Source of the DNA: Bolinopsis microptera
Lineage: Eukaryota > Ctenophora > Tentaculata > Lobata > Bolinopsidae
Reading direction: 5' to 3'
Assembly: GCF_026151205.1 (NCBI RefSeq)
Contig: NC_087074.1
Coordinates: 5,764,001 to 5,828,000, forward strand
DNA length: 64,000 nucleotides
The notes under the pieces were generated by a model that made no database searches, was not told the origin of the DNA, and saw nothing but the letters and a program-made list of their open reading frames with translations. A program made the position numbers and the translations under genes. Positions within the stretch are counted from its first letter, which is position 1; every line of letters begins with the position of its first letter. Shown piece by piece: positions 39,930-64,000 of the stretch.

Positions 39930-40785
39930 ACTTATTCTTGCAGTTTGTGTGAAAACTTGTAAACATTTTTTGGTTCATTGCTAACTAAAATTTGTGGCTT
40001 GATTATATATAATATATTTTATTTGACAATTTGATGATTGAGTAGTTACAAATTATAATACCCTGGCCCTAGAAACCCGCTAATTGAAAGCTTTGTTTGA
40101 GGAATTTTTAAAATTCAGTTATGTTTAATTTCTTTTTATCATCTAGCTCTGTAGTTACTACTATTATAGAGGGTAGGGATTTTATTTAACATTAACGACA
40201 ACCATTGAATTTTGAGATAAGCCTTTGGACATTTTTTATTAGATTTTGAAAATCTTGGACCACAAAAAATTGTCAAAAACCGAGGTTTTCGTTCTGCCAA
40301 TGTTATCAATTAAAATATGAATTGATGACCCAAGTACGAATTCGTAAATAAATCGCAGTTTGACTTTGACCCTAAATTAACTCATTATTTTATTCACATG
40401 GAATGATAACTTTTATCCCTTTTATTGACTTAGTCGACCTAACCTAGACAATGTTATAAAATATTACAACCAATGAATCGTATCAAAAAGGAAAAAAACT
40501 TATTTAAATCAGCACAAGCAGTTTTTCTTCATTTTATCGCTGATAATTTCAATTATTGCTGATAACTTCCAAAATCTTGTTGGTTATCACAAACAAATAT
40601 TTGACCGATATTGCAAACTTTAGAGTGTACTCTGTTTTGGTTAATTGCTAAATCAAATTTGATCATATTATGATTTATTTGGTATTTTTCATGATTGAGT
40701 CGTTACAAATTGTAGTAAATAATCTTGTTATATTTAATTCTGTGTTAACACGTAAATAACATTTATACAACAATTTTGTTCAGGA
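39930..40785. other. Intergenic block between zinc-finger genes 3 and 4
   Basis: Copy of the shared upstream block. It begins with remnants of a lost finger (ACTTATTCTTGCAGTTTGTG) after the gene 3 stop. No gene. Confidence 0.6.
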
Positions 40786-42039
40786 ATGTCACTTCAAAAA
40801 ACAGAAAGGTTTGATGGGATTGATATCAAAGAAGAGATGACAGACGACCAACAAGTTAACACTACTTATACTTCAACCTGGTCAGTATGCAATTGTAAAT
40901 GTGAGGAAGACGACAGAAGTAGCAATCTGAAAGCTGAAGCCGTGCTATGTAATCAGTTTAAAGCTAGTTCACAACACTTCAACCAAGTAGGTGAAGCTGA
41001 AAAGATTGAGGATTTCAGGATTTCCCGTGATGTTCCGGCTAAAGATGAACTTTTGGACTATAAAGAACTTTGGTGTGATAACTGTAATCTTGCGATAACA
41101 CCATCGAATGTAAGACCTGCAAAAAGAAAGTCTTCTTTTCCTATACCTACCGAGTCTGATTTTGGTATTCAGGCTGAAACTCTATCTATTGGAGAAACCT
41201 TTCCGTCTGGGAATAAACATAAGTTCAAAAAACAGAAACAAACACACACCGGAGAGAAACCTTATTCTTGCAGTTTGTGTGATTACAAAGCGAGTCAATC
41301 GAGCACTCTTGCTCGTCACAAACTGACACACACCGGGGAGAAACCTTATTCTTGCAGTTTGTGTGATTATAAATCAAATCGATTGAGCAATCTCGCTTCT
41401 CACAAACGGACACACACAGGAAAGAAACCTTATTCTTGTAGTTTATGTGATTATAAATCAAATCAATCGGGCAATCTTGCTATTCACAAACTAAAACACT
41501 CTGGGAAGAAACCATATTCCTGCAGTTTTTGTGATTATAAATCGTATCGATCGAGCGATCTTGCTCGTCACAAACGGACACACACCGGGGAGAAACCTTA
41601 TTCTTGCAGTTTGTGTGATTACAAATCGAGTCGATCGAGCACTCTTGCTAATCACGAACTGACACACACAGGAGAGAAACCCTATTCTTGCAGTTTGTGT
41701 GATTATAAATCCTATCGATTGAGCGATCTTGCTTCTCACAACCGGATACAAACCGGGGAAAAACCTTATTCTTGCAGTTTGTGTGATTACAATGCGAGTC
41801 GATCGAGCAATCTTGCTCGTCACAAACGGACACACACCGGGGAGAAACCTTATTCTTGCAGTTTGTGTGATTTTAAATCGAAGCAATCAAGTGATCTTGC
41901 TCGTCACGAACTGACACACACTGGAGAGAAACCTTATTCTTGCAGTTTGTGTCAATATAAATCAAATCAATCGGGCAATCTTGCTAAACACAAACTGACA
42001 CACAAGGAATTCAGGATTCAGGTGCAAGAATTTTGCTAG
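40786..42039 (+). CDS. C2H2 zinc-finger protein 4 (417 aa, 9 fingers)
   Basis: Family N-terminus [17 protein letters not shown] with a three-residue insertion (TYT) after NTT. The second SUMO-type motif is altered (EKIED rather than VKIED). Nine C2H2 fingers follow, the last beginning CSLCQYKS, then the tail KEFRIQVQEFC. One linker reads IQTGEK. Layout, start context and 3' ATTAAA are as in gene 2. Presumed nuclear DNA-binding protein. Confidence 0.87.
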   Translation: MSLQKTERFDGIDIKEEMTDDQQVNTTYTSTWSVCNCKCEEDDRSSNLKAEAVLCNQFKASSQHFNQVGEAEKIEDFRISRDVPAKDELLDYKELWCDNCNLAITPSNVRPAKRKSSFPIPTESDFGIQAETLSIGETFPSGNKHKFKKQKQTHTGEKPYSCSLCDYKASQSSTLARHKLTHTGEKPYSCSLCDYKSNRLSNLASHKRTHTGKKPYSCSLCDYKSNQSGNLAIHKLKHSGKKPYSCSFCDYKSYRSSDLARHKRTHTGEKPYSCSLCDYKSSRSSTLANHELTHTGEKPYSCSLCDYKSYRLSDLASHNRIQTGEKPYSCSLCDYNASRSSNLARHKRTHTGEKPYSCSLCDFKSKQSSDLARHELTHTGEKPYSCSLCQYKSNQSGNLAKHKLTHKEFRIQVQEFC

Positions 42040-42890
42040 TTAATACATTAAAACATTATATAATATAGTATATAATGAAAATATATTTGAATGATATTGC
42101 AAACTTTAGATTGTACTCCGTTTTTTGGTTAATTTTGCTAACTACAATTTGTGGCTTCATTATAACATATTTTATTTAATAATTTGATGATTAAAATTAG
42201 TTACCAATTATAATACACTAGAAACTCGCTAGTTGAAAGATTTGTTCAAGGAAATCTTAAAAATCAGTTATGTTTAGTTTCTCTTTATCATCTATCTCTG
42301 TACTACTACTATGGAAAGTAGGGATTTTATTTGGCAATGACAAAAACGTTGACTTTTGATAAAAGCCTAAATTGAACATTTTTTATCAGATTTTGAAAAT
42401 CTTGGACCACTAAAAATTGTCAAAAACTGAGGTTTTCATTCTGCCACTGTTATTAATGAAAAATATTAATTGATGACCCAAGTACGAATTCGTAAATAAA
42501 TCGCGGTTAGACTTTGGCCCTAAATTAATTCATTATTTTATTCGCGTAGAATGATAACTTTTATTGACTTAGTTATTAACTTAGTCAATCTAACCTAGAC
42601 AATGTTGTAAAATCTTGCAACCAATGAGTCATATGAAAAAGGAAGAAAATCCTGATTTGATTCGCCGATAGTTTCATCTATATTGTCTATAATTTCCAAA
42701 AATTTGACCGAAATTGCAAACTTTAGATAGTACTCTGTTTTGGTTACTTGCAAAATGGAATTTTATTATACAATTTGTTTGGTATTTTTGATGATTGAGT
42801 CGTTACAAATTATAGTAAATAATCTTGTTATTTTTAATTCTGTTCGCTTAAGACGTAAAGAACATTAATATACAAACATTTTTATCAGGA
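42040..42890. other. Intergenic block between zinc-finger genes 4 and 5
   Basis: Copy of the shared upstream block, non-coding. It has TTCTGCCACTGTTATTAATG and the conserved ATGATTGAGTCGTTACAAAT shortly before gene 5. Confidence 0.6.
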
Positions 42891-44284
42891 ATGTCACTTC
42901 AAAAAACAGAAAGGTTTGATGGGATTGATATCAAAGAAGAGATGACAGACGACCAACAAGTTAACACTACTTCAACCTGGTCATCATCAGTGTGAAATTG
43001 TAAATGTGAGGAAGACGACAGAAGTAACAATCTGAAAGCTGAAGCCGTGCTGTGTAATCAGTTTGAAGCTAGTTCAGAACACTTCAACCAAGTAGGTGAG
43101 GTTGTAAAGATTGAGGATGTCAGGAGTTTTTATGATGTCCCGGTTAAAGATGAACTTTTGGACTTAGATAAAGAACTTTGGTGTGATAACTGTAATCTTG
43201 CGATAACACCATCGAATGTAAGACCTGCAAAAATAAAGTCTTCTTCTTTTCCTATACCTACTGAGTCTGATTTTGGTATTCAGACTGAAACTCTATCTAT
43301 TGGAGAAACCTCACCGTCTGGGACTAAAGAAAAGTTGAAACCATCGAATGTAAGACCTGCGAAAAGAAAGCATTCTCTTGTTCCTATACCTACTGAGTCT
43401 GATTTTGGTATTCAGGCTGAAACTCTATCTATTGGAGAAACCTCTCCGTCTGGGACTAAACAGAATTTGAAAAAACAGAAGCGAACACACACCAGAGAGA
43501 AACCTTATTCTTGCAGTTTTTGTGATTTTAAATGCAATCGATCGGGCAATCTTGCTCGTCACAAACTGACACACACAGGAGAAAAACCTTGTTCTTGCAG
43601 TTTGTGTGATTATAAATCAAGTCAATCGGGCGATCTTGCTCGTCACAAACTAACACACACCGGGAAGAAACCTTATTCTTGCAGTTTGTGTGATTATAAA
43701 TCAAATAACTCTGGCAATGTTACTTCTCACAAACGGACACACACCGGGGAGAAACCCTATTCTTGCAGTTTGTGTGATTATAAATCGTATCGATCGAGCG
43801 ATCTTGCTAAGTTCACAAACGGACTCACACCGGGAAGAAACCTTATTCTTGCAGTTTGTGTGATTATAAATCGTATCGATCGAGCGATCTTGCTGCTCAC
43901 AAACGGACTCACACCGGGGAGAAACCTTTTTCTTGCAGTTTGTGTGATTATAAATCGAATCGATTGAGAAATCTTACTGCTCACAAACTGACACACACAG
44001 TAGAAAAACCTTATTCTTGCAGTTTGTGTGATTATAAATCGTATCGATCGAGCGATCTTGCTCGTCACAAACGGACACACACTGGAGAAAAACATTATTC
44101 TTGCAGTCTGTGTGATTATAAATCGAATCAATTGAGAGATCTTACTGCTCACAAACGGACACACACAGCATAGTAACCTTATTTTTGTAGTTTTTGTGAT
44201 TATAAATCAAATCAATCGGGCAATCTTGCTAATCACGAACTGACACACAAGAAATTCAGGATTCAGGAAGAAGAACTTCGCTAG
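42891..44284 (+). pseudogene. C2H2 zinc-finger gene 5 (nonsense and frameshift)
   Basis: Full-length relative with several lesions: TGC to TGA in the CNCKC patch (SSSV-stop-NCKCEED, near 42993), an extra base near 43810 in finger 4 (GCTAAGTTCACAAACGG for GCTCGTCACAAACGG), and a TAG after the eighth finger (44171-44173), before a last finger and a tail KKFRIQEEELR. The segment SNVRPAK...[11 protein letters not shown] is duplicated in tandem at about 43210-43470. The longest open piece (from 43047, 306 codons) starts inside the N-terminal domain. Probably not functional, though a truncated product from 43047 is conceivable. Confidence 0.85.
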
Positions 44285-44317
44285 TTAATACATTAAAACA
44301 TTATACAGTATACGGTA

Positions 44318-46080
44318 TTTGACCAAAACCCATAATCATGGGTAGAGTGAACCGCTGCCAGTGTCTCTCTTTTCCAAACAAAAGAAAATGATATTAATTT
44401 GAGGAACCGTCCGCAAATGCAAATTGATACCGAGAATGAAATCGGTCGCTCGCTTTTCCCATTCAATAAGCTTTATTACAATACGTAAGCCGTGAATGAA
44501 TGGGAAAAGCGAGCAACCGATTTCATTCTCGGTATCAATTTGCATTTGCGGACGGTTCCTCAAATTAATATCATTTTCTTTTGTTTGGAAAAGAGAGACA
44601 CTGGCAGCGGTTCACTCTACCCATGATTATGGGTTTTGGTCAAATATCATCTCTTTTTGATTATAATGTCAGGATAATTTACACAGTCGAATCTTAATAA
44701 GGAGGTAATTTCAACGATTTCGAAATTTTACCTTTGAAAACGTTTCCTTGTGTTTAGGTAGGCATATCTGTCAATAACAGACTGAATATAGCACTTTTTA
44801 CTCATTCAAGTTGGCATTAAATTCATATATAATGCCATTTTAATATCGTGGGAAAGCAGAATATATTCGAAATCACGAATGAGCAAAATTCTCACCTTTC
44901 GCACGTGCAAACTTTGAGCGGACGTTGCGTGCGCATAAAATATTGAATCACCATAAATTTTTGCATAGTGTTATTTAATATATAGTTTGATAAGCATGAA
45001 AAGTTTCAGAAGATTTCAAAAAGAACTTGGATCACAACGGGACTCCAAAGTTGGTAAAAATCGTGAAAATAACAATTTTTAGTGATTTTAGCTATTTTAA
45101 ATGAATTTGGGCGTGTCCCCACGTGTGCAACTTTTCGATTTTCAACTTTAAAACTAGCCTATAACACAATTTAGACCTTTAGGAAGCAAAATTGAGCTCC
45201 ACAACCCAAGGGATAGCCCAACACCAGAGAATACTAATTCACAACTTTTGTGTTTTTATAAAATTATTCTTCAAAAAAGCACAAACTTCAATAGCGAATA
45301 TCTTTATGAAGGAGCAAGGTAGGAAAACTTTCCGGTAGATTTTCAGAATGCTTAAACAATTATCTAAGATGAAAATGTCCTCAGATTTTGAATAAAATTA
45401 CTCCTTAATGCTTTAAAATCGATTTGAAAAGTTGTTATTTTGTCAAAAATCAAGTTTTAAAAACACTTAAATTGATGACGTCATCAAGTGATGATGATGA
45501 CGATAAATTATTTTTCGATATAATGTAAACTAAAGTATAAACAATTATCTTTAAAACCTGCGGTTCGAAATGACTGTATCTTTTATACTTTTGAATCTAC
45601 GGACACTTAAATGTAGGCTACAATTTACTGCAAAAGCGTCTATACATATATATATAGCTTCACGACAATCTGTTGTAAAACAGGGGTTCCAGAAAACCCA
45701 CTTCCCGATACTCCTGCAACATGAAATTTTTTTTACAGTCGATTTGGACAAGGTCTAGACGCCCTGCAAAGTTTCAGATCTCTAACTCAATTTTAACATG
45801 GTTTTTAAGGCACCTGAATATGGCGATTTTGGGTTTTTTACCTAATTTCGTATAACATGCTGGCGCGTATTTTGCGCAAATTTCTTAAAAACCTCCACAT
45901 AACTATTTCTTATTCCTGTCATCTTTAACATTGAATTAGAATGTTTTGAACTTAAATATACCTGCTGAACTACTTTCGATGAGTCTTAATGCCTGGAAAA
46001 CAATAAAGGGGACATAATAGTATAGGGGGTACATAGTGTTGTGAATATAAGGGCAACGGTTATGCTTGCCAGCATTGTGA
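44318..46080 (-). mobile_element. 1.76-kb non-autonomous element, copy F, inserted after zinc-finger gene 5
   Basis: Cleanest copy because it sits in otherwise paralogous sequence. On the minus strand it runs from TCACAATGCTGGCAAGC (46080) to GGTTTTGGTCAAA (44318). Foldback end 44318-44644; TTGATGACGTCATCAA 45472-45487. Comparison with the 3' flanks of genes 2, 6 and 7 puts the insertion in an AT-rich stretch between A and T with no clear target duplication. No credible ORF. Confidence 0.85.
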
Positions 46081-46985
46081 TTTATAATATGTTTGATCAA
46101 TTTACTTGGGACAGAATTTTTATAACTTCCAAAATCTTGTCGGTTATATCAAAAAATATATTTGAATGATATTGCAATCTTTTTTAGTTAATTGCTAACT
46201 ACAATTTGTGGCTTGATTATAATATATTTTATTATATAATTTGATGATTGAGTAGTTACAAATTATTATACACTAGAAACCCGCTAGTTGAAAGCTTTGT
46301 TCGAGGAACTTTTAAAAATCAGTTATGTTAATTTCTCTTTATCATCTAGCTCTGTACTACTACTATAGAATTTAGGGATTTTATTTGACAATGACGACAA
46401 CGTTAAATTTTTAAGATATGCCTCTTCAAAATTTGTATTAGATTTTGAAAATCTTGGACCACTGAAAATTGTCAAAAACTGAGGTTTTCATTCTGCCACT
46501 GTTATTAACTAAAATATTAATTGATGGCCCAAGTACGAATTCGTAAATAAATCGTCGTTTGACTTTGGCCCTAAATTAACTCATTATTTTATACACGTGG
46601 AATGATCACTTTTATTGACTTAGTTATTAACTTAGTCAACCTAACCTAGAGACAATGTTGTAAAATCTTACAACCAATGAATCGTATGAAAAAGAAAACA
46701 AATTATTTAAATCAGCACAAGCAGTTTTTCTTCATTTGATCGCTGATAATTTCAATTATTGTCGATAACTTCCAAAATTTTGTTGGTTATCACAAACAAA
46801 TATTTGACCGATATTGCAAACTTTAGAGTGTACTCTGTTTTGGTTAATTGCTAAATCAAATTTGATCATATGATTTATTTGGTATTTTTCATGATTGAGT
46901 CGTTGCAAATTGTAGTAAATAATCTTGTTATATTTAATTCTGTTTTAAGACGTAAATAACATTTATACAACAATTTTTTTCAGGA
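46081..46985. other. Intergenic block between copy F and zinc-finger gene 6
   Basis: Rest of the 3' flank of gene 5 and a copy of the shared upstream block. No gene. Confidence 0.6.
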
Positions 46986-48029
46986 ATGTCACTTCAAAAA
47001 ACAGAAAGGTTTGAGGGGATAGATATCAAAGAAGAGATGACAGACGACCAACAAGTTGACACTACTTCAACCTGGTCATCATCAGTGTGCAATTGTAAAT
47101 GTGAGGAAGACGACAGAAGTAACAATCTGAAAGCTGAAGCCGTTCTGTGTAATCAGTTTGAAGCTAGTTCAGAACACTTCAACCAAGTAGGTGAAGTTGT
47201 AAAGATTGAGGATGTCAGGAGTTTCTATGATGTCCCGGTTAAAGATGAACTTTTGGACTATAAAGAACTTTGGTGTGATAACTGTAATCTTGCTCTAACA
47301 CCATCGAATGTAAGACCTGCAAAAAGAAAGTCTTCTTTTCCTATACCTACTGAGTCTGATTTTGGTATTCAGGCTGAAACTCTATCTATTGGAGAAACCT
47401 CTCCGTCTGGGACTAAACAGAATTTGAAAAAACAGAAACAAAAACACACCAGAGAAAAGAGCCATCTTGCTTCTCACAAACGGACGCACACTGGGGAGAA
47501 ACCCTATTCTTGCAGTTTGTGCGATTATAAATCAAATCAATCGTGCACTCTTGCTCGTCACAAACTGACACACTCCGGGGAAAAACCTTATTCTTGCAGT
47601 TTGTGTGATTACAATGCGAGTCGATCGAGCACTCTCGCTCGTCACAAACTGACACACACCAGGGAGAAACCTTATTCTTGCAGTTTGTGTGATTATAAAT
47701 CATATAATTCTGGCCATCTTGCTTCTCACAAACGAACACACACCGGGGAGAAACCCTATTCTTGCAGTTTGTGTGATTATAAATCTAATCATTCGGGGGA
47801 TCTTGCTCGTCACAAGCGGTCACACACAGAGGAGAAACCCTATTCTTGCAGTTTGTGTGATTATAAATCATATCACTCTGGCAATCTTGCTTCTCACAAA
47901 CGGACACACACCGGGGAGAAACCGTATTCTTGCAGTTTGTGTGATTATAAATCAAATCAATCGGGCAATCTTGCTAAACACAAACTGACACACAAGGAAT
48001 TCAGGATTCAGGAGCAAGAATTTTGCTAG
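46986..48029 (+). CDS. C2H2 zinc-finger protein 6 (347 aa, 6 fingers)
   Basis: Shortest intact member. N-terminus as in the family (IKEE, VKIED, VKDE, CNCKCEED). Before the first whole finger, the remnant [19 protein letters not shown] has lost its cysteine pair, the scar of an in-frame deletion between fingers. Six complete fingers and the tail KEFRIQEQEFC follow. Presumed nuclear DNA-binding protein with the shortest recognition site of the cluster. Confidence 0.87.
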   Translation: MSLQKTERFEGIDIKEEMTDDQQVDTTSTWSSSVCNCKCEEDDRSNNLKAEAVLCNQFEASSEHFNQVGEVVKIEDVRSFYDVPVKDELLDYKELWCDNCNLALTPSNVRPAKRKSSFPIPTESDFGIQAETLSIGETSPSGTKQNLKKQKQKHTREKSHLASHKRTHTGEKPYSCSLCDYKSNQSCTLARHKLTHSGEKPYSCSLCDYNASRSSTLARHKLTHTREKPYSCSLCDYKSYNSGHLASHKRTHTGEKPYSCSLCDYKSNHSGDLARHKRSHTEEKPYSCSLCDYKSYHSGNLASHKRTHTGEKPYSCSLCDYKSNQSGNLAKHKLTHKEFRIQEQEFC

Positions 48030-48978
48030 TTAATACATTAAAACATTATATAATATAGTATGTTTGATAAATTAACTTGGACAGAATTTTGATGACCAAA
48101 ATCTTGTCGGTCAGCCCAGAAAATATATTTGAATGATATTGCAAACTTTAGATTGTACTCCGTTTTTTGGTTAATTTTGCTAACTACAATTTGTGGCTTC
48201 ATTATAACATATTTTATTTAATAATTTGATGAATGAAATTAGTTACCAATTATAATACACTAGAAACTCACTAGTTGAAAGATTTGTTCAAGGAAATATT
48301 AAAAATCAGTTATGTTTAATTTCTCTTTATCATCTATTTCTGTACTACTACTATGGAAAGTAGGGATTTTATTTGACAATGACGAAAGCGTTTAATTTTG
48401 AGATAAGCCTAAATTGAACATTTTTATTAGATTTTGAAAATCTTGGACCACTAAAAGTTGTCAAAAACTGAGGTTTTCATTCTGCCACTGTTATTAATTA
48501 AAATATTAATTGATGGCCCAAGTTCGAATTCGTAAATAAATCGCGGTTAGACTTTGGCCCTAAATTAACTCATTATTTTATTCTCGTGGAATGATAAATT
48601 TTATTGACTTAGTTATTAACTAAGTCAACCTAACCTAGACAATGTTGTAAAATCTTGCAACAAATGAATCATATGAAAAAGGAAGAAAATCCTTATTTAA
48701 ATCAGCACAAGCAGTTTTACTTCATTATATCGCCGATGATTTCAATTATTGTCGATATGTTCCAAAATCTTGTTTGTTATCACAAACAAATATTTGACCG
48801 ATATTGCAAACTTTAGAGTGTACTCTGTTTTGGTTAATTGCTAAATCAAATTTGATCATATGATTAATTTGGTATTTTTCATGATTGAGTCGTTACAAAT
48901 TGTAGTAAATAATCTTGTTATATTTAATTATGTTCGCTTAAGACGTAAATAGCATTTATACAACAATTTTTTTCAGGA
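48030..48978. other. Intergenic block between zinc-finger genes 6 and 7
   Basis: Copy of the shared upstream block with TTCTGCCACTGTTATTAATT and the same landmarks. No gene. Confidence 0.6.
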
Positions 48979-50229
48979 ATGCCACTTCAAAAAACAGAAA
49001 GGTTTGATGGGATTGATATCAAAGAAGAGATGACAGACGACCAACAAGTTAACACTACTTCAATTTGGTCAGTATGCACTTGTAAATGCGAGGAAGACGG
49101 CAGAAGTAACAATCTGAAAGCTGAAGCCGTGCTGTGTAATCAGTTTGAAGCTAGTTCAAAACATTTCAATCCAGTAGGTAAAGTTGTAAAGATTGAGGAT
49201 TTCAGAAGTTGCTATGATGTCCCGTTTAAAGATGAACTTTTGGATTATAAAGAACTTTGGTGTGATAATTGTAATCTTGCGCTAACACCATCGAATGTAA
49301 GACCTGCGAAAAGAAAGTCTTCTTCTTTTCCTATAGCTACCGAGTCTGATTGTGGTATTCAGGCTGAAACTCTATCTATTGGAGAAACCTCTGCGTCTGG
49401 GACTAAACAGAAGTTGAAAAAACAGAAACAAAAACACACTGGAGAGAAAACTTATTCTTGCAGTATTTGTGATTACAAAGCGAGTCGATCGAGCACTCTT
49501 GCTATTCACAAACGGACACATACCGGAGAGAAACCTTATTCTTGCAGTCTGTGTGATTTTAAATCGAATCATTCGGGGGATGTTGCTCGTCACAAACGGA
49601 CACACACCGGAGAGAAACCTTATTCTTGCAGTCTGTTTGATTTTAAATCGAATCGATCGAGCGATCTTGCTCGTCACGAACTGACACACACAGCAGAGAA
49701 ACCTTATTCTTGCAGTTTGTGTGATTATAAATCGTATCGATTGAGCGATCTTGTTTCTCATAAACGGACACACACCGGGGAGAAACCTTATTCTTGCAGT
49801 TTGTGTGATTTTAAATCGTATCGATCGGGCGATCTTGCTCGTCACAAACGGACACACACCGGGAAGAAACTTTATTCTTGCAGTTTGTGTGATTATAAAT
49901 CGTATCAATCGGGCGATCTTGCTCGTCACAAACTGACACACACCGGGGAGAAACCTTATTCTTGCAGTTTGTGTGATTATAAATCAAATCGATTGAGCAA
50001 TCTTGTTTCTCACAAACGGACACACACCGGGAAGAAACTTTATTCTTGCAGTTTGTGTGATTATAAATCGTATCAATCGAGCACTCTTGCTCGTCACAAA
50101 CGGACACACACCGGGGAGAAACCTTATTCTTGCAGTTTGTGTGATTATAAATCAAATCAATCGGGTAATCTTGCTAAACACAAACTGACACACAAGGAAT
50201 TCAGGATTCAGGAACAAGAACTTTGCTAG
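48979..50229 (+). CDS. C2H2 zinc-finger protein 7 (416 aa, 9 fingers, one broken)
   Basis: Last member of the array; the start reads MPLQKTERF (S2P). Nine finger units, but the third is CSLFDFKS: its second zinc-ligand cysteine is Phe, so it should not bind zinc normally. The second finger has DVARH for DLARH. The N-terminus keeps IKEE and VKIED, but VKDE has become FKDE. Tail KEFRIQEQELC. Presumed nuclear regulator, perhaps beginning to decay. Confidence 0.86.
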   Translation: MPLQKTERFDGIDIKEEMTDDQQVNTTSIWSVCTCKCEEDGRSNNLKAEAVLCNQFEASSKHFNPVGKVVKIEDFRSCYDVPFKDELLDYKELWCDNCNLALTPSNVRPAKRKSSSFPIATESDCGIQAETLSIGETSASGTKQKLKKQKQKHTGEKTYSCSICDYKASRSSTLAIHKRTHTGEKPYSCSLCDFKSNHSGDVARHKRTHTGEKPYSCSLFDFKSNRSSDLARHELTHTAEKPYSCSLCDYKSYRLSDLVSHKRTHTGEKPYSCSLCDFKSYRSGDLARHKRTHTGKKLYSCSLCDYKSYQSGDLARHKLTHTGEKPYSCSLCDYKSNRLSNLVSHKRTHTGKKLYSCSLCDYKSYQSSTLARHKRTHTGEKPYSCSLCDYKSNQSGNLAKHKLTHKEFRIQEQELC

Positions 50230-50546: not shown

Positions 50547-50640
50547 GGACATAGGCGGACATAGGCGGACATAGACGGACATAGGCGGACATTGGCGGAC
50601 ATTGACGGACATAGGCGGACATAGGCGGACATTAATGGAC
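50547..50640. repeat. 10-bp minisatellite (GGACATAGGC) x9
   Basis: Nine units of GGACATAGGC with variants GGACATAGAC and GGACATTGGC. An inverted partial copy (GTCCGTCTATGTCCGC) lies at about 50506-50521, so a hairpin can form. Confidence 0.85.
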
Positions 50641-50787
50641 ACCTAAATTGCTAAATAAAATGTTCAATTTTTGCTGTTATAGGGGGATCATGTTTTTTGT
50701 CCGTTCGGTACCCTATATTTTCAAAACGGACAAAAAATAGAGCGGACAAAAATGGACAAAAAAGGGCAAAAATGGAAATAACATTTA

Positions 50788-51373: not shown

Positions 51374-54300
51374 ATGTCATTTGAAGATGCATGCGAGTGG
51401 CTACATGCTGGAACAAAAACACAGCGCAAGGTATGTTCTAATTTTAGTTTTAAAACAACATTTATCTCATACCCAATTATAGTTTGAGTACTCCACCACC
51501 TTTTAGAACTGTTAATTTTTCCTTTACTTATGAGATGCAGTATAGCTCAAATAAGAAATATGGAAAACAATTAAATATTTCAGAAATGTAGTTGCCATCT
51601 AATTTGTATAAACATTAATCAATACACTTGATTTGGTACTACAATCCTAATGCCACTAACTCTCAGAAAGGTTTAGATGCGGTAACTAACCATGTAGCAG
51701 ATCCGGAAATACAGAGAAAGATTGACAGTAAAACTGATCAGAATAACAAAAAACTCAACTGGACGAAGCTACTTGATTGGGTCCATGAAGCTATTATCCA
51801 AAATGTTGGCAAGCTTGGTCCCAACGACCATGTCAATAAGGCTAAAGGTTTTAAATTACCAGCTGAATTGTTAGATTAAAACTATAAATTTCAAAATTAA
51901 TTAAAAGGGGATGATTTTAATCAGTTACATAAGTAAATCCTATTTAAAAGAATTTGGTTGACCAATCTAATCATCAATTATATATTAACGTCTTATTTTG
52001 CTATCTGTAGGTCTAACAAATGCATACTCCAACGTGTTACAATCTGCTGATGCTCGAGGTGAACGGATCAAGAGCAATCTAGTGATCTCATCCCATGTGA
52101 TGGATGTAGTTATCAATAACAACAACTGCAGATTCTTAGGGAAGGACTACATCCGGATCATGTGCAAGTATATCCTCTCCTCGCCTCACCACTGTGCTAA
52201 CATCGCCGCACCCAAATGGATGGGTATGTTTTTTCTTCTATGTAACACGTCAACTAACACTTTGTTCATTTGGGAGGAGGTAATTATTTATTCTTAATTG
52301 AATATAATATAACCTTATATAATAAGGTGTTTACCTCGTTACCTTCTGACCTCCAAGATAGATTAATGACGATTGAATGACAACTTAACCTATTAACTAA
52401 TTAACTAATGACCGCTTAACTAGTATTTAAAACTCCCATTGTTCAGCCCTGCTGATGAGATTGTTTGAGGTTTGGACTTCTCACAAAGACCTTGTCCCTG
52501 CCCCCATCCTCGTCACCTGTATTTACCGAGTTGCGGCCAGCACCTCTGTCAAACACCACTTTCCTAAACCTGAGGTGTTTCTCTACTTCTCCGACTTCAT
52601 AAGAATGGAATGGTAAGTGGGCCTACATATTATAATGAAAATGTTAAATTTCCTCCTAGTCCAACAAACATTTTTGTACCAAATACAAAAGTTTCTTCTG
52701 CCCTTAAAAATGTCAGGTCTTTTAAAAATTTCCTCTTTCTTTGGATAAACATTTCCTCCCAGTAAGAAGCTAGATTGTTCAATGGTCAAAATTACAGTCA
52801 AAACCGCCAAATTTCGGTCAAGGAGACAGCAGAAAAGCTTCTCTTACAAAATCTCACAAAATTTGTTCTTCTATTCTGATGATTTTCCGTTTATCCAAAG
52901 ATCCAAGCTTCCTTTCGGGATCCAACTTTCAGTACCACAATTGTGTCTTGTGCCATCCTCAGTGACCTTGCTAGATGGTCATCCAAGAAAAATTCAGTCA
53001 AAACAGCGAAGGAAACGGCAGAAAAGCCCTATTTCAATGATCTGCATTCCAATCAGAACTTAAGAGAAAATAATTTGATATGAGAGTCGAAAAAGCTGCT
53101 GAAATTAAGAAGCCGAATAAATGATGTGGTGTATTTAACTCTTCCGGACGATATTTGTAACTCTCATAACTCCCACAAACTCAGGGGCCGGCACCACGAG
53201 AAGAGCAGCAGTTTCACTACATCCTGTGTAAACTTCGCCTCTCTCTACAACACCCAAATAACCAGATCTGGTGGCTCACCTCACGATATCCTGGAGCTAG
53301 GAGCCCTCATTATTCCCCTTATCTTGAGACCAAATCATGCGCTGCTGTACAGGTATTTCTAGGATTTTCTTTTTGTGTTGTGTGCTACGGTACAGCGTTT
53401 CATTTTTTGGAATTTATAGTGGTATGTTCTATTATAGATATCAGGTATATTTATCTAATTTTAATGTAATATTCCCGTTATCTTGCGACCAAATCATGCG
53501 CTGCTGTATAGGTATATCTATGGTTTTCTTTTTCTGAGGACGCCTTACCAAGTTACCAGTAGTTTACCATCTAATTCTAATGTAATATTATCCACAAATC
53601 ATGCGCAGGGGGGTTAGAGGAGAGACTATGGAGTTTGTGAGTGGTGTTGTGGGTGTTTGGCAGAGTTTAGATCCCGAAGAGCGATCTGTTGATCTTCAAG
53701 AGGTATGTTTACTTGCTGATTTGTAGGAATAATTTATAGTTCAATTAGTTACAACTGGAAAATTCTCGCGGTAAACAAAAAGAGGTTCATATGATCCCAA
53801 TCTTGAGTATTTGTAGCTTCTCAAATAACATTTCAAGCGTTTCGTATACCTAAATGATAAACATAAAATATCAAGAAACTCGTACTTACAGTTTTAATTT
53901 TCGTTTCAGATGATCCGACTATTACAAGATAGCCTTTTGTCTGACCTAGAAAACTCGTCTGTCAATTTAGTTTCCTCGAATACAAGGTGAAGTAAAACAG
54001 TAAAAGTTTTTATTTATTTGTTTGTAAGGTTTATTTTACCAGGCAAAAAATCCAAATTTCTATTAAGCTACAGTTCATGAATTTGGTCTTCTCTGAGGTA
54101 TCATAGTATGCTTTTTAAAAGAAAACCCCGTATAGTGATGATAATAGGCAGTTACGATATTGTGATCTATTTTATACAGACCCTAATTATTAGTATTTAG
54201 TATGTGGTCGATTAATTATCTCGAATAAAACAGATTTCCCACCTCATTAACAACTAATTACTTCAGTTATTATATTAGTTTAAGTGAAAACAAATGTGGT

Positions 54301-57300
54301 GATTTAAACAAGTAAAGTGTTGCTGTCACGGTTACAAATACAATGCAAGAATAGAATGTTTAAATATTTAAATATTCAAATTTTAAATATTTTTATTTAT
54401 GAGACAATTCAACAACCTCCCAAGGTAACCCAAAAATTGAATTGCAATCCCTTTCCCAATTTTGGAGTTGACCGCACTCCAGGACCATCAGCCAGATCAG
54501 ATCCGCGGCAGTGGGACCCCCAGACACACATAGCTCAACTTGAGAGAATGTGTCTGTTCCAGAGAAACAGGTCGCTAACCAATCTCGACCTGCTTCTCCG
54601 GACATGACTAGAGTCATGGGGCTGGCACAAGGAGTCAACTACTCCCCCCACTGTGACCCCCCTTAAAGGGAGATCGTCTAAAATCGTCCTCAGTGGTGTA
54701 AAATCGTAGGGATGTGATAGTGACGCTCCTTAATATAAGGAATATCGTCTAAAATCATCATCTTTGGTTTAAAATCGTAGGGTCGCTGTAGTCCAATCTT
54801 CCTTAATATAAGGAACTGAACTACAGTCGACAGTGGTATAAAATCCTCATCCTTGGTGTAAATTGTGATGGTAGTCCACGATCCACTCAGCCACTGATGG
54901 GCAGTACAACGTCTCCAGAAAGAGCCGGTCGCACCATGAGAGGAGGCAAGCTGTTCTTCCTTTCCAGATCAGTCTGGCTTTCTTCGTCTTTTGTTAGGAG
55001 ACCAAGCTCCAAATCAGGTTGGTCAGTCTGTGACCAGTTGTGGAACCTTTTCTTGCTTCGGGTTTTCATAAACATGAACTTCATGCTACTATCCAGGTGG
55101 TGCTGGAATTCACCGAACGTCCTTTCGGTGGCATTATCCAGCTGCTGGATCATCATTGTGCAGGTTCTAAGCCTGGTAGTGGCAGTCCTACTGTCTGCCT
55201 TCGTGGCCACCAATAAGTGGACAAAGAGTCCGAGTAGGCAGGACGTCAATATCAGAGTGAATATTGCCGCCACTAACATGGAGTCTTTGTCCAGTACCAT
55301 ATTAGTGTGTGAGTTGGATGATCAAAGTTGAGATCAAATTGCGAATCGAAGCGAATTCAAAGAGAGTTCTAACAGATTGGCTGCTGTACAGACGTGTTGC
55401 TAGGTTTTATAGATAAAAACTGCACGTGCGACACTATTTTCATCTGTGCTTGCCAAAAAATCAAAGTCGTGCGTGCAATTACCAATTTTACAGCTTGTCG
55501 CCTAGCGACGGATCTTCAAGGTATCAGGACGATTTTCTAAACTGCTGGAAACTGAAATATTTATCAAACTATATTCAAATTTTAAGTTTAACGCTCAATT
55601 TCTCCGCAGCATTGAAGGTATTTATTACAAGCTCTGCTCACGTGTAATGATATGCTGTAAAAACTTGGGATGTGATGAAACGTTGGAACCGTCCAGAAGG
55701 CGCAGAAAAGTCACATCTCTTCTGGATTTATTTCGAAGACTTCATTCTTTGCCTGACATTATCAAAACTTCAATGTGAGTTGTGTTGTGTATGCGACAGT
55801 CAATGTTGCTATGAAACTTTTCTTGGCGGGAATAAGGACGGTCGCTCTTTTTAAACATATTTACTGTAGGACGCAAAAACAATTGTCTGGAGAATAGATC
55901 AAATCGTAAGCACTTTCGCGAAAGCGCGCGCCTACCTTTCGGCATGGCTAGGCTGTCTGGATATTTACAATTTCCTCGGCTAAACATGCATTTATGCATT
56001 GGTATAACAATTAATACACCACTTTTTGTCATGCAGGACGATAACTCAATTGACTTGCTCACTAGTCTCAACCAAAGATTGTGAGGACGCAAGGGAACCT
56101 CTGTCATAACATCGATTTTCCTTTAGGTGTAGAATCGGCACATTACTGAATCAAGAAGAGTATTTTGAGAAGAGTGATTTGAAAAGTATAGTGTCAAACC
56201 TGTTGACGGCACTCAAAGAAACGAAATCAGATGCTAGCTTTGTCGATGCTTTACTAACCTTCTTGTTGGATATTTTAGAAGGTTCCCATTACCTATTTAG
56301 CACATGACACATTTTCTTGAATATTAAACATTTTTGATTAATCCTCATTCATTAATTATTTGTTTGATTTCTCAATATTACCTCTATTACCAGTGATAGA
56401 TGTTCCTGATTTAAAGACTGAAGTGGTGTCCACGGTTCAGAGATCGTGTCTACTCTCGCACGAGTATCTCGCACTGAAGATACTGTATTCTATAACAACA
56501 CCTCCAGATATCCTTACCTTCAAGAAACCGTCTTGGTAAATTTAATTAATTGATAATTTATTTAGTCGATAATTAATCAATTGATAATTTAGTCTTTGAG
56601 AAATTTTTGGAGTTTTTAGCGGTTTCACGAAATTCTTAGCTGATTCATCCTTAATCTTTGCCACTCCTGACAATTACGACATTTCATGACTACAGGTCAA
56701 ATGTTGACTCCATTGGAGCTAATCTTGATACAGTGAGTGTCTCCGATAAGAAACTAGTGAATTGGTTGCTGAGAGGATACTGGACAGAAAGTACTTTCTA
56801 CGTCTTCAAGATCGCTCTTTCTGATTGGAAGTTAGTTTTCTTATACTTTTTACTAGGAGCTATCCAAGTTTTTCTATCTGTTAAAAAACAGTTGTAAGCA
56901 CTAAACTGTGTCCAAGATTTGACATATCTCAACTTCATTTTCTTAATACTTCTGCAGAGGGAGCACTCCAGCTAAAATAGGACATATTCTGGCTAATATC
57001 GTGACAAATCAAAAGAAAAGTCCTCGTAACGACCCGACCTTTCTTCTGGAGACTGGCTGTGAAGATAATCAAGTTTGCAACCATTACGGTGAAATGCAGT
57101 TCAAATCAGAGAATATCCCCGTCAAGGAATTGGCAAAAAATATAGGTTGCTATTTTAAAGATTTTAAAAGTATGTTTAGCAATTTAAACATTTTAAAGAT
57201 TTTTCCTTACACTACCGATATTTTTGTATTTCTTAATGCATGATAAGTAACGCTACACTACCAGAAGGAGCGACAGTATGCATTAGCAATTTACTATTTC

Positions 57301-59837
57301 AGGATCAACTCCCCGCAAACTAACCGTTAACCAGGATTTAATGGACGAAATTAAGAGTATCATCCTGGAAATATGTATGAAAGTATCGACTGAGAGTCAG
57401 AGCGATTTGTTACTGATGTACGCTACTGTCATACAATCTATGTTCACAAATCTGAAGAGAAGTGGATTGAGCGAAAATGTGATATCCTGCTTGCACCAAC
57501 AGTTCGATTTTATCATCGTGGTAAATACAAATCGTGTAGTTATGTTTATCAAACTTTTCTTTAGATTCAACTCTTTATTCTATATAGAAATCAGTGACCC
57601 AACAGGTCATTCTTATGAGTTAAAACACCAATTTTAAACATGATGTTGTCTGTTCCTTATGCAGCCAAACAATTTTCATCGACTTATTTTATCATAGTCA
57701 ACAAATAATAACAAACCTATTCTCCAACTCAATAGTTTTTTTTGCTAGATAAGAACCAGCAAGCCCACAACTAACTCTTATAGCTTTACTTATAGCTTTA
57801 CTTATGATATGACCACTTATTTCAGTACCTGAAGAATCTTCCGATGACGTCAGACCTACACCCATTGCTCCTTGAATTAGCCAAAGTAGCTTATATCGGC
57901 CTACCACTGTCTTGGATGAGATACCTTTTATCTGCTTTGGAAGGTTGGTAATTGAATGATGAGTATAAGTTTTATCATAAAAGTAGTGTTATTAAAATTG
58001 AATTTATTATCATCATATTGGGTTGATGATCTCTTTAGAATAGTAAATCATCATAATATTATCATATTATTATCTAACTACACTAACATCGATTTAAATA
58101 CCCGATGACTTTGACGGTCGATTTGAGTAAATAAAACAACCGCAGGAAGTGAACCAGTAAGCAGTGAGACAGATTCAGAGGAGCTGATAGTATCCAGTTC
58201 GTTGTGGGGCGGAAAAGAGAACACATTTACCTCTGGAAACATTTCCAGCACTTTCATGTCCACCACTGTACCCACCACTCAGGTAGAACTTCTTACCGTC
58301 TCTTTTTCTCAACAACTTATCCGAAATGGTTTTGACACTTTTAACCTTGTGTCTTGATAAATTAGAGTGCAGTTAGATAATTAAGAATCTGATGTTTGCT
58401 AGTTTATGGGAGCGGACGAAGGACAGTTTGCGGAGGGAAATCTAGTTGATGCTAGCACTGAGAGGAGAAAACAGATCGTGGATATTCTGGTCACGTGGCA
58501 CGAGTCTACCCCTGGAACGTCTCTTGAAATTCTCGAATCCCTCAAGGTACATGCTGGTATTATTATACATTATACATTATATATCATTATGTATAGTAAG
58601 AGGTTGATGAGTGTCAGCTTCTATTTTTAGACTTATTCTGTGATAAGAATTGTATGCTCCCTGCTATCTAGACTCTAGAGGCTACTCGAATAGCATTTAT
58701 ATCAGCTCTAAAAAATTATTAATGAATAATTTTCAGACGCTGTGTCAAGATCATCTGGAAGTCAGATCCTGGACTCCTTGTCTGCTGCATATCTTGAGAC
58801 AACTCTGCCATCTCTCTCCGATTCTCCCGCTCAGATTTGTGGAAATTATCCCTGAAATTGCAAGGTTAGTGCCTCGTGTCACTCTCATTCTCAGATAATA
58901 CTGTAAGAACTATTCTATACTTCTTTTATTGAGGACTGAATCTTTGCCATGGGTATTACTGTATTATTAGGTGCATTAAACACGGGTAAGATATGTAGTA
59001 TGAAATCATCCAATCGTATAAAAGTTTCTAATTTTGGGTTAACAGATGAACCAATCTGCAGGTTATTGCTAGTAGCGAACTTTAAAGACGAGACAAAGTG
59101 TTGCGAAGTGTTGCAGAGTGTCGCGGTGTTGTTACCACACGTCACCTCCGAGACTCATAGTATAGTTGTTAGGGACATTGTACAAAATATCGTCCTCAAT
59201 TTCTGGTGAGAACTCCGAATCTACTTTCCCTACTTTCGTCACACATCAATATCACATTTCTTTAATCCTCGTTACCCTTTCATTCGCTAAATCCTCTTTA
59301 CGCTCCACCTTGACTTGCTTAGACTCTAAGATATGATTTAAAGTTGGCGGTCGCTACAGTGTCGTTACACCTCTCCGTTTTCTAACCCGTTATCCCAGGC
59401 AGTTCTATGAACAGGGTAAGATGTCGCCCTTGTGTCGGATACCCTTCCTAAAGTGTATTAACCACCTCGCCTCCCCTCGTTTACTGGCTGCTGTGGGAGA
59501 GCATCTCAAACCTGGGGACATCCTCGTAGCTATGGCTCAAGACGAGGTACTCACTTAGTTCACGTTATCGATCATTTTGATTTTGAGCATTTAAATCGTC
59601 ATATTCTCCGGAATGTTATTGATCTTGAACTGTGTATTTCAGCCCAAACTAAAGTACAGGATGTTATAAAATGGTATTATAAACAGAACGTTAGACAAGT
59701 CAATCTGACTGTTTCAGGTGCCGGTGGTAAGACTACACGTGGTGAAGATAGTTGAAACCCTCCTCTCAACATCATCCCCGGATCGCCAGCTGGAGATGTT
59801 CAACATGTTCAGTGCTGTGTTCGATATGAAGTGTCAG
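51374..59837 (+). CDS. ATM: ATM serine/threonine kinase homologue, N-terminal 983 codons (partial)
   Basis: PIKK-family kinase acting in DNA double-strand-break signalling; only the N-terminal HEAT-repeat part is here. Exons: 51374-51430, 51667-51847, 52011-52223, 52447-52612, 53185-53352, 53609-53702, 53910-53986, 55494-55520, 55610-55774, 56127-56281, 56394-56535, 56696-56830, 56958-57169, 57303-57520, 57826-57943, 58146-58282, 58403-58546, 58737-58864, 59062-59205, 59399-59546, 59718-59837. All phases agree (2949 nt). Identification rests on the start region: TKTQRKKGLDAV (TAN-like), DPEIQRKID, KLNWTKLLDWVHEAIIQ, which align with the human ATM N-terminus (RKKEVEKF, DPETIKHLD, LNWDAVFRFLQKYI), then HEAT-like helices in the same order. 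The kinase domain must lie beyond the right edge. The 27-nt exon 8 and the weak GTTTTA and GTTCCC donors are the least certain parts. Confidence 0.85.
54660..54860. repeat. Degenerate tandem repeat in ATM intron 7
   Basis: Two to three imperfect units of about 85 bp with CGTCTAAAATCGTC, GGTGTAAAATCGTAGGG and CCTTAATATAAGGAA (a small palindrome). They lie just downstream of the antisense ORF. Confidence 0.6.
54887..55300 (-). CDS. Nested antisense ORF, small single-pass membrane protein (137 aa)
   Basis: Lies in the 1.5-kb seventh intron of ATM on the opposite strand. A hydrophobic helix at about residues 8-32 (MLVAAIFTLILTSCLLGLF) is followed by a basic/polar tail with an internal near-repeat (SQTDQPDLELGLL and SQTDLERKNSL). 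A TATA-like CTATAAAA sits about 105 bases upstream. I do not recognise the family. It could be a single-exon nested gene, a retrocopy or chance; composition is richer in GC than the surrounding intron, which favours a real gene. Confidence 0.5.
   Translation of the reverse strand: MVLDKDSMLVAAIFTLILTSCLLGLFVHLLVATKADSRTATTRLRTCTMMIQQLDNATERTFGEFQHHLDSSMKFMFMKTRSKKRFHNWSQTDQPDLELGLLTKDEESQTDLERKNSLPPLMVRPALSGDVVLPISG
55405..55412 (-). promoter_or_regulatory. TATA-like element for the nested antisense ORF
   Basis: CTATAAAA on the minus strand, preceded by GCACGTGC. The spacing to the ATG at 55300 suits a short 5' UTR. Confidence 0.35.
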
Positions 59838-62800
59838 GTGAGTGTTCAACATGTTCAGTGCTGTGTTCGATATGAAGTGTCAGGTGAGTGTTCAACATGT
59901 TCAGTGCTGTGTTCGATATGAAGTGTCAGGTGAGTGTTCAACATGTTCAGTGCTGTGTTCGATATGAAGTGTCAGGTGAGTGTTCAACATGTTCAGTGCT
60001 GTGTTCGATATGAAGTGTCAGGTGAGTGTTCAACATGTTCAGTGCTGTGTTCGATATGAAGTGTCAGGTGAGTGTTCAACATGTTCAGTGCTGTGTTCGA
60101 TATGAAGTGTCAGGTGAGTGTTCAACATGTTCAGTGCTTGTTGGATATGAAGTGTCAGGTGAGTGTTCAACATGTTCAGTGCTGTGTTCGATATGAAGTG
60201 TCAGGTGAGTGTTCAACATGTTCAGTGCTGTGTTCGATATGAAGTGTCAGGTGAGTGTTCAACATGTTCAGTGCTGTGTTCGATATGAAGTGTCAGGTGA
60301 GTGTTCAACATGTTCAGTGCTTGTTGGATATGAAGTGTCAGGTGAGTGTTCAACATGTTCAGTGCTGTGTTCGATATGAAGTGTCAGGTGAGTGTTCAAC
60401 ATGTTCAGTGCTGTGTTCGATATGAAGTGTCAGGTGAGTGTTCAACATGTTCAGTGCTGTGTTCGATATGAAGTGTCAGGTGAGTGTTCAACATGTTCAG
60501 TGCTGTGTTCGATATGAAGTGTCAGGTGAGTGTTCAACATGTTCAGTGCTGTGTTCGATATGAAGTGTCAGGTGAGTGTTCAACATGTTCAGTGCTGTGT
60601 TCGATATGAAGTGTCAGGTGAGTGTTCAACATGTTCAGTGCTGTGTTCGATATGAAGTGTTAGGTGAGTGTTCAACATGTTCAGTGCTTGTTGGATATGA
60701 AGTGTCAGGTGAGTGTTCAACATGTTCAGTGCTGTGTTGGATATGAAGTGTCAGGTGAGTGTTCAACATGTTCAGTGCTGTGTTCGATATGAAGTGTCAG
60801 GTGAGTGTTCAACATGTTCAGTGCTGTGTTCGATATGAAGTGTCAGGTGAGTGTTCAACATGTTCAGTGCTGTGTTCGATATGAAGTGTCAGGTGAGTGT
60901 TCAACATGTTCAGTGCTGTGTTTGATATGAAGTGTCAGGTGAGTGTTCAACATGTTCAGTGCTGTGTTCGATATGAAGTGTCAGGTGAGTGTTCAACATG
61001 TTCAGTGCTGTGTTCGATATGAAGTGTCAGGTGAGTGTTCAACATGTTCAGTGCTTGTTCGATATGAAGTGTCAGGTGAGTGTTCAACATGTTCAGTGCT
61101 GTGTTGGATATGAAGTGTCAGGTGAGTGTTCAACATGTTCAGTGCTGTGTTCGATATGAAGTGTCAGGTGAGTGTTCAACATGTTCAGTGCTGTGTTCGA
61201 TATGAAGTGTCAGGTGAGTGTTCAACATGTTCAGTGCTGTGTTCGATATGAAGTGTCAGGTGAGTGTTCAACATGTTCAGTGCTGTGTTCGATATGAAGT
61301 GTCAGGTGAGTGTTCAACATGTTCAGTGCTGTGTTTGATATGAAGTGTCAGGTGAGTGTTCAACATGTTCAGTGCTGTGTTCGATATGAAGTGTCAGGTG
61401 AGTGTTCAACATGTTCAGTGCTGTGTTCGATATGAAGTGTCAGGTGAGTGTTCAACATGTTCAGTGCTGTGTTCGATATGAAGTGTCAGGTGAGTGTTCA
61501 ACATGTTCAGTGCTGTGTTCGATATGAAGTGTCAGGTGAGTGTTCAACATGTTCAGTGCTGTGTTCGATATGAAGTGTCAGGTGAGTGTTCAACATGTTC
61601 AGTGCTGTGTTTGATATGAAGTGTCAGGTGAGTGTTCAACATGTTCAGTGCTGTGTTCGATATGAAGTGTCAGCTGGAGATGTTCAACATGTTCAGTGCC
61701 GTGTTCGATATGAAGTGTCAGGTGAGTGTTCAACATGTTCAGTGCTGTGTTCGATATGAAGTGTCAGGTGAGTGTTCAACATGTTCAGTGCTGTGTTTGA
61801 TATGAAGTGTCAGGTGAGTGTTCAACATGTTCAGTGCCGTGTTCGATATGAAGTGTCAGCTGGAGATGTTCAACATGTTCAGTGCTGTGTTAGATATGAA
61901 GTGTCAGGTGAGTGTTCAACATGTTCAGTGCTGTGTTCGATATGAAGTGTGAGGTGAGTGTTCAACATGTTCAGTGCTGTGTTCGATATGAAGTGTCAGG
62001 TGAGTGTTCAACATTTTCAGTGCTGTGTTCGATATGAAGTGTGAGGTGAGTGTTCAACATGTTCAGTGCTGTGTTCGATATGAAGTGTCAGGTGAGTGTT
62101 CAACATGTTCAGTGCTGTGTTAGATATGAAGTGTCAGGTGAGTGTTCAACATGTTCAGTGCTGTGTTCGATATGAAGTGTCAGGTGAGTGTTCAACATGT
62201 TCAGTGCTGTGTTCGATATGAAGTGTCAGGTGAGTGTTCAACATGTTCAGTGCTGTGTTCGATATGAAGTGTCAGGTGAGTGTTCAACATGTTCAGTGCT
62301 GTGTTCGATATGAAGTGTCAGGTGAGTGTTCAACATGTTCAGTGCTGTGTTCGATATGAAGTGTCAGGTGAGTGTTCAACATGTTCAGTGCTGTGTTCGA
62401 TATGAAGTGTCAGGTGAGTGTTCAACATGTTCAGTGCTGTGTTCGATATGAAGTGTCAGGTGAGTGTTCAACATGTTCAGTGCTGTGTTCGATATGAAGT
62501 GTCAGGTGAGTGTTCAACATGTTCAGTGCTGTGTTCGATATGAAGTGTCAGGTGAGTGTTCAACATGTTCAGTGCTGTGTTCGATATGAAGTGTCAGGTG
62601 AGTGTTCAACATGTTCAGTGCTGTGTTCGATATGAAGTGTCAGGTGAGTGTTCAACATGTTCAGTGCTTGTTCGATATGAAGTGTCAGGTGAGTGTTCAA
62701 CATGTTCAGTGCTGTGTTTCGATATGAAGTGTCAGGTGAGTGTTCAACATGTTCAGTGCTGTGTTCGATATGAAGTGTCAGGTGAGTGTTCAACATGTTC

Positions 62801-64000
62801 AGTGCTGTGTTCGATATGAAGTGTCAGGTGAGTGTTCAACATGTTCAGTGCTGTGTTCGATATGAAGTGTCAGGTGAGTGTTCAACATGTTCAGTGCTGT
62901 GTTCGATATGAAGTGTCAGGTGAGTGTTCAACATGTTCAGTGCTGTGTTCGATATGAAGTGTCAGGTGAGTGTTCAACATGTTCAGTGCTGTGTTCGATA
63001 TGAAGTGTCAGGTGAGTGTTCAACATGTTCAGTGCTGTGTTCGATATGAAGTGTCAGGTGAGTGTTCAACATGTTCAGTGCTGTGTTCGATATGAAGTGT
63101 CAGGTGAGTGTTCAACATGTTCAGTGCTGTGTTCGATATGAAGTGTCAGGTGAGTGTTCAACATGTTCAGTGCTGTGTTCGATATGAAGTGTCAGGTGAG
63201 TGTTCAACATGTTCAGTGCTTGTTGGATATGAAGTGTCAGGTGAGTGTTCAACATGTTCAGTGCTGTGTTTGATATGAAGTGTCAGGTGAGTGTTCAACA
63301 TGTTCAGTGCTGTGTTCGATATGAAGTGTCAGGTGAGTGTTCAACATGTTCAGTGCTGTGTTCGATATGAAGTGTTAGGTGAGTGTTCAACATGTTCAGT
63401 GCTTGTTGGATATGAAGTGTCAGGTGAGTGTTCAACATGTTCAGTGCTGTGTTCGATATGAAGTGTCAGGTGAGTGTTCAACATGTTCAGTGCTGTGTTT
63501 GATATGAAGTGTCAGCTGGAGATGTTCAACATGTTCAGTGCTGTGTTCGATATGAAGTGTCAGGTGAGTGTTCAACATGTTCAGTGCTGTGTTCGATATG
63601 AAGTGTCAGGTGAGTGTTCAACATGTTCAGTGCTGTGTTCGATATGAAGTGTCAGGTGAGTGTTCAACATGTTCAGTGCTGTGTTCGATATGAAGTGTCA
63701 GGTGAGTGTTCAACATGTTCAGTGCTGTGTTCGATATGAAGTGTTAGGTGAGTGTTCAACATGTTCAGTGCTGTGTTCGATATGAAGTGTCAGGTGAGTG
63801 TTCAACATGTTCAGTGCTGTGTTTGATATGAAGTGTCAGGTGAGTGTTCAACATGTTCAGTGCTGTGTTGGATATGAAGTGTCAGGTGAGTGTTCAACAT
63901 GTTCAGTGCTGTGTTCGATATGAAGTGTCAGGTGAGTGTTCAACATGTTCAGTGCTGTGTTCGATATGAAGTGTCAGGTGAGTGTTCAACATGTTCAGTG
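59838..64000. repeat. 46-bp minisatellite, about 90 copies, copied from the ATM exon 21 splice junction
   Basis: Runs off the window. Unit: GTGAGTG followed by 39 bp identical to the last 39 bases of exon 21 (TTCAACATGTTCAGTG...AAGTGTCAG). Each unit therefore ends in an exon end and begins with a consensus donor CAG|GTGAGT. Variants include shorter TGCTTGTTGGATATG units and three units in which GTGAGTG is replaced by exonic CTGGAGATG (61674, 61860, 63516). The next ATM exon lies beyond the window. Confidence 0.95.

Follow-up and report, generated by a model that had tools for sequence, protein, structure and literature searches.

A 64,000-nt window of the Bolinopsis microptera genome (RefSeq assembly GCF_026151205.1, contig NC_087074.1, positions 5,764,001 to 5,828,000, forward strand) runs out in a long tandem array, in which the end of an exon of an ATM/Tel1-like gene is repeated together with the first bases of the following intron. 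We consider it probable that this array is a minisatellite born from a splice junction, that it is part of a genome-wide class and that it is tolerated through use of the splice site flush with the exon. Positions are those of the window (the whole 64,000-nt stretch), and feature coordinates are collected in Table 1.

The 46-bp array and its host gene

Tandem Repeats Finder (TRF) reported a 46-bp tandem array with 98% matches from position 59797 to the window end. With the flank included the array ends at window-equivalent ~64486, the last ~490 bp lying outside the window. It holds 102 units including the terminal one, ~91 of them inside the window. Identical units account for 68 of the 102, 15 unit types were found (terminal unit included) and the 101 non-terminal units are 45 to 48 bp long. 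AGGTGAGT occurs 99 times and CAGGTGAGT 94 times within the array, and AG|GTGAGT borders are present in 99 copies. With a unit length inside the range of ~10-100 bp, a large copy number and high identity, the array qualifies as a minisatellite. A chance match is excluded by the sheer number of near-identical units in tandem. A genome search with window 59500-59850, which passes over very common words, gave 101 matches, all at the array locus (up to C3:5828489).

The alignment match line indicated that the exon matches the unit from the unit's 6th base on, one period upstream of the first GT. The unit therefore consists of 40-41 bp from the exon end and 5-6 bp from the start of the intron, with one T that can be assigned to either. 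The first-pass annotation, made from the letters alone, had described ~90 copies of a 39 + 7 bp unit starting at 59718, each with CAG|GTGAGT. The array (in the assembly) and the 46-bp length were borne out, while the copy number and the split needed correction and 59718 turned out to be the exon start. Three 48-bp units depart from the described border, the exonic join CAG|CTGGAGATG replacing CAG|GTGAGTG. This join is the exon's own reading behind its upstream CAG, and a 48-bp unit carrying it stays in frame (LEMFNMFSAVFDMKCQ). The exonic joins may be a record of early in-frame duplication or of later template switches. Selection on the in-array donors was considered and dropped: GTGAGT is intact in 99 of 99, but the variants are too few to be informative.

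The last unit continues into GTGAGTTTTACC, with which the original intron presumably began, and the next exon (aaacag|GAAGAT) begins 143 bp past the array end. This separate 143-bp intron tail with its own acceptor points to an existing intron that was enlarged. Birth by junction duplication, as first suggested, fits the array well: the unit is exon end plus first intron bases, the first copy is flush with an open coding exon and behind the last copy the intron continues with different sequence. Tandem duplication of a stretch spanning the exon-intron border would have copied ~40 bp from the exon end together with the 6 bp that open the intron. The extra copy would fall into the intron, so that the message would be unchanged while the exon-flush donor is used. 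Slippage or unequal exchange, to which the unit variants point, could then have brought the array to 102 units. Junction arrays of this kind show how an intron may grow without protein change.

The gene model has 22 exons and is open over 1,122 residues, with exon borders placed by eye. The array exon is the 19th in this model, not the 21st as first annotated; earlier exons may be missing. The start of the model matches Pfam TAN (E 3e-5, 24.7 bits, below the curated cut-off of 27.1). Residues 945-1050, encoded past the array, match Tel1 (E 2.4e-5), and the only other matches at 0.01 for this query were two designed proteins. Kinase exons and a FATC domain (1.6e-12) are found ~46-53 kb downstream on the strand of the array gene, one of the kinase exons having Tel1 (1.4e-11) and ATM (2.1e-11) as top matches. 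A FAT-domain match sought in this kinase/FATC region was not found and a third exon tested from it (open frame) had no match; both count against ATM identity. On balance the host gene looks like an ATM/Tel1 gene, in agreement with the first annotation, and we infer one continuous gene from TAN to kinase/FATC, across 35 kb that was not read. On the minus strand at 54887-55321, inside modelled intron 7, lies an open frame of 144 residues that includes a hydrophobic stretch; it is possibly a nested gene.

Reading frame and the choice among identical donors

The array donor CAG|GTGAGT fits the consensus at 9 of 9 positions (A or G at +3), compared to 7 or fewer for the remaining 21 modelled donors. 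Within the 22-exon model, the next exon was joined from each of the 99 AG|GTGAGT donors. Donor 1 alone leaves the frame open through the model. All 98 later donors lead to a premature stop, at residue 929 from donor 2 and at residue 939 from donors 3-6. One base is left over when 46 is divided by 3, and the stops arise within two units. The frame-change argument of the first annotation is thus upheld in a stronger form than claimed. It follows that donor 1 is used or that the intervening copies are removed by further splicing. Two things set donor 1 apart from the other copies: it lies 120 bp from the acceptor of its own exon, and it is transcribed before them; the near context is common to all. 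With strength and near context equal, position must decide, be it through exon definition, transcription order or repeated splicing.

Reading-frame or domain continuity in the clearest cases suggests that the outermost, exon-flush site would be the one used, that is, the first donor in donor arrays and the last acceptor in acceptor arrays. The choice could be made by exon definition (pairing across a short exon) or by commitment to the first transcribed donor. A hundred donors in near-equal 46-bp context, with only the outermost keeping the frame, would amount to a natural experiment on splice-site choice.

Each AG|GT border could also be usable as an acceptor. If every CAG|GTGAGT acted as acceptor and donor in turn, the array would be removed stepwise in unit multiples, with the junction recreated at each step. 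AG followed by GTGAGT is available at every ordinary unit border (99 sites), and AGGT sites are used both ways in human introns and in UBC (PMC10809524). The pyrimidine share before the unit AG is 0.47 vs a mean of 0.61 at the 21 modelled acceptors, although the lowest real acceptor has 0.29, and stepwise removal is superfluous if donor 1 is used directly. We regard it as unlikely. Frequent use of the later donors, with the stops lowering ATM output via message decay and copy number tuning the dosage, would agree with the premature stop behind each later donor and with the equal strength and near context of all donors. Such a cost should select against arrays, yet many exist, and we give this possibility little weight.

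Donor and acceptor arrays across the genome

A second array was found unsought by TRF in the flank. It has 17 copies of a 43-bp unit (exon end plus GTAAT) unrelated to the first unit, begins 1,856 bp after the first array, several introns further, and is taken to lie in the same gene. The reading frame of its exon is open; a Pfam domain match was not found for this exon.

The whole genome was then scanned for triples of strong donor 9-mers, with reversed patterns as control. Triple starts numbered 319 vs 10 reversed for CAGGTGAGT, 447 vs 0 for CAGGTAAGT and 684 vs 31 for AAGGTRAGT (1,450 vs 41 summed over the three patterns). The single 9-mers numbered 1,910 vs 1,364, 2,463 vs 1,212 and 6,015 vs 5,732, respectively (10,388 vs 8,308 summed). 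These single-site numbers are nearly equal, and abundance therefore fails to explain the contrast in triples. At least seven AAGGTRAGT arrays are present on C1, and array units at other loci are unrelated to the 46-bp unit. As a separate observation, the strong donor 9-mers as single sites barely exceed their reversed forms for two of the three patterns, which would suggest loose conservation of ordinary donors, whereas strong donors are plentiful in arrays.

The arrays listed from these scans are the first in contig order, not a random sample (8 + 10 + 7 = 25, all fetched). By our own classing, 13 of the 25 have the exon-end-plus-intron-start design: the ATM-like array, L007, L025, L009, L017, L018, L022, L023, L024, L028, L031, L033 and L034. 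For four of them the exons are supported by domain matches, on both sides of the array or downstream of it. In L023 the sequence joined across the array covers the Pfam homeodomain model in full (1-57, 4.4e-23), compared to 1-45 at 2.7e-13 for the part before the array alone. L009 joined across its array matches Pfam MoCF_biosynth at 1.9e-17, with only TDIILTTG used before the array, as the frame upstream of these residues is unclear. L031/L032 joined across the array matches Img2 (mL49 family) at 1.1e-7 (32.4 bits, cut-off 34.4), and L028/L029 matches Sushi at 5e-9 in two stretches, the better one after the array. The L018 exon is WD40-like, at 1.2e-5 at best and under cut-offs.

Several points weigh against a genome-wide class of junction arrays. 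The triple counts are units, not loci, and the ATM-like array alone supplies 78 of the 319 CAGGTGAGT triples. The scan targeted strong-donor arrays, which in part accounts for the donors seen in them; that this is not the whole explanation is argued by the reversed control and by the second array, which was found unsought. The other 12 listed arrays lack the exon-end-plus-intron-start design. Among the arrays listed, L010, L016 and L030 have an intronic unit running GT..AG, flush behind an open frame, and in L008, L015, L019, L021, L026, L027, L035 and L036 a clear exon was not seen. Pfam gave no support for L007/L025, L017, L022, L024, L033 and L034, which are based on open frames and splice signals. 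A PDB sequence search returned no supporting match for L033 and none for the L031 peptide.

The many minisatellites of this genome, and the 8 of 25 listed arrays with no clear exon, could be taken to mean that the ATM-like array is an ordinary intronic minisatellite that includes a donor by chance. The excess of triples over their reversed forms at nearly equal single-site numbers, and the fact that 13 of the 25 listed arrays begin within what looks like an exon end, make this improbable in our view. Expansion of a few copies during assembly (a Bolinopsis microptera assembly was built with wtdbg from PacBio reads; PMC10232365) is very unlikely, as the 15 irregularly ordered unit types, the lengths of 45-48 bp and the three exonic joins go beyond plain repetition of a single stretch and the design recurs in other genes.

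On the acceptor side, TTTTYNCAG triples numbered 93 vs 23 reversed (triples alone were counted), so that the contrast is less marked than for the donors. The acceptor listing is complete with 20 places, of which four were fetched by choice (L038, L039, L040 and L041). Arrays ending flush with an exon were found in L038 and L040 (Table 1), and the flush exon is unclear in L039 and L041. A further acceptor array, L020, came from the donor scan. For such arrays we infer that splicing would have to use the final acceptor. The scans show that predicted donor arrays and their acceptor mirrors recur in this genome. Splice-site choice could thus be examined in one animal across further arrays with unrelated units, on the donor and in some cases the acceptor side.

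A broader proposal is possible, and we offer it tentatively: splice junctions, most of all those with strong consensus donors, may be hot spots of tandem amplification that give rise to donor and acceptor satellites throughout the genome, with the spliceosome reliably picking the flush site out of tens of identical sites or as many as a hundred, and rows of donors may serve as U1 landing strips inside the intron. Twelve junction arrays (L025 and L031 left out) were aligned for a donor-like hexamer in the exon, one period upstream. It matches the unit donor at 5-6 of 6 positions in L007, L018, L023 and L034 and falls short of this in the other 8; the comparison is partly by construction and is taken as a lead only.

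L007 and L025, ~67 kb apart on C9, are paralogous copies of one exon, and both carry the same 34-bp donor array of ~13-14 units. In this pair it could be compared how the arrays evolved once the gene had been duplicated. Two other minisatellites in the window (8594-9679 and 18988-19603) were read and have no junction design. Seven TRF arrays with an 84-bp unit at 33786-50198 read as C2H2 zinc fingers and seem to mark a group of zinc-finger genes arranged in tandem. In a glutamate receptor encoded elsewhere in the genome (L013), a 120-residue segment has 'ML032222a iGluR' of the ctenophore Mnemiopsis as its best match (1.1e-33), ahead of 4zdm, a kainate-like receptor (2.1e-23), and of NMDA receptors (1.6e-16), in keeping with a ctenophore; the 60 best matches of another receptor (L011), by contrast, were kainate and AMPA receptors. 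A 10-bp repeat, GGACATAGGC or its complement, stands beside different loci (window 50547-50641 and L021 upstream of position 1439) and is perhaps part of a dispersed element.

Table 1. Coordinates of the ATM-like array, its gene model and related arrays (window positions unless a locus or contig is named).
Feature	Position	Strand	Remarks
Modelled exons 1-18, ATM/Tel1-like gene upstream of array exon	51374..59546	+	AG/GT borders, open frame; TAN motif residues 4-149
Exon 19 of model, 120 bp	59718..59837	+	after tttcag, before GTGAGT; end ..AAGTGTCAG, phase 0
46-bp junction minisatellite, 102 units	59797..64000, on to ~64486 (L005:1-986)	+	TRF, unit count
Exonic part of first unit, 41 bp	59797..59837	+	
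First, exon-flush donor GTGAGT	59838..59843	+	sole frame-keeping donor among 99; 9/9 consensus positions
Exonic join CTGGAGATG after CAG, 48-bp unit, first of three	61674..61682	+	
Exonic join CTGGAGATG after CAG, 48-bp unit, second of three	61860..61868	+	
Exonic join CTGGAGATG after CAG, 48-bp unit, third of three	63516..63524	+	
Second junction array, donor CAG|GTAAT	L005:2842-3571 (window-equivalent 66342-67071)		intron continues GTAATGATGGG after last copy
L038, acceptor array	C2:22512001-22516000		ends flush with kinesin exon, 1.2e-7; core word x29
L040, acceptor array	C3:19959901-19962300		ends flush with open exon; sole Pfam match weak, Tau95_N 0.012
L020, acceptor array from donor scan	C8:7267301-7270500		flush with TAF2 exon, 1.6e-13; TFIID subunit 2 at 0.0016

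Comparison with known repeat and splicing systems

In the tandem-duplication model of intron gain, a copied AGGT gives both sites of the new intron; ATP2A1, fission-yeast and potato cases are described in PMC4974935, the fission-yeast intron spanning four 24-bp copies and the potato gene having one intron-exon border copied once. The array described here is similar in that the duplicated unit supplies extra GT and AG (99 AG|GTGAGT). It differs in that the AG|GT copied is that of an exon-intron junction apparently present before, in that an existing intron was apparently enlarged and in the number of copies, 102. Human UBC has nine coding 228-nt in-frame units with AGGT borders used both ways and keeps a variable number of them, and 77 human introns have a length that is a multiple of the surrounding repeat unit, an 8.4-fold excess (PMC10809524). 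UBC and the ATM-like array share a regular AGGT at the unit borders. Unlike the UBC unit, the 46-bp unit is out of frame, not being a multiple of 3 as a coding unit would be, and its copies are apparently all removed. The intronic minisatellites or variable number tandem repeats of ABCA7 and TERT that affect splicing likewise consist of intronic units, tens of bp long, repeated in tandem; the titles and abstract starts of those reports do not mention units holding the end of the host exon and its donor. In the open-licence literature, as judged by titles and abstract starts, we found no minisatellite made of a host exon end and its donor.

In a recursive splice site AG, with a pyrimidine tract before it, is directly followed by GT. 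The ATM-like array has such AG|GT borders; it differs in that some hundred of them follow one another, and the pyrimidine shares given above do not mark a clear tract. Introner-like elements are similar copies that form introns of many genes, and here all 101 matches fall at one locus and the units of other arrays are unrelated. Kuhne in 1983 and Reed and Maniatis in 1986 are said to have tested duplicated splice sites, with two or few sites; this genome poses the same question with up to a hundred. Judged from the assembled sequence, the array appears to share the logic of AGGT duplication, but it would have arisen at a junction already in place, its unit shifts the frame and its copies number 102.

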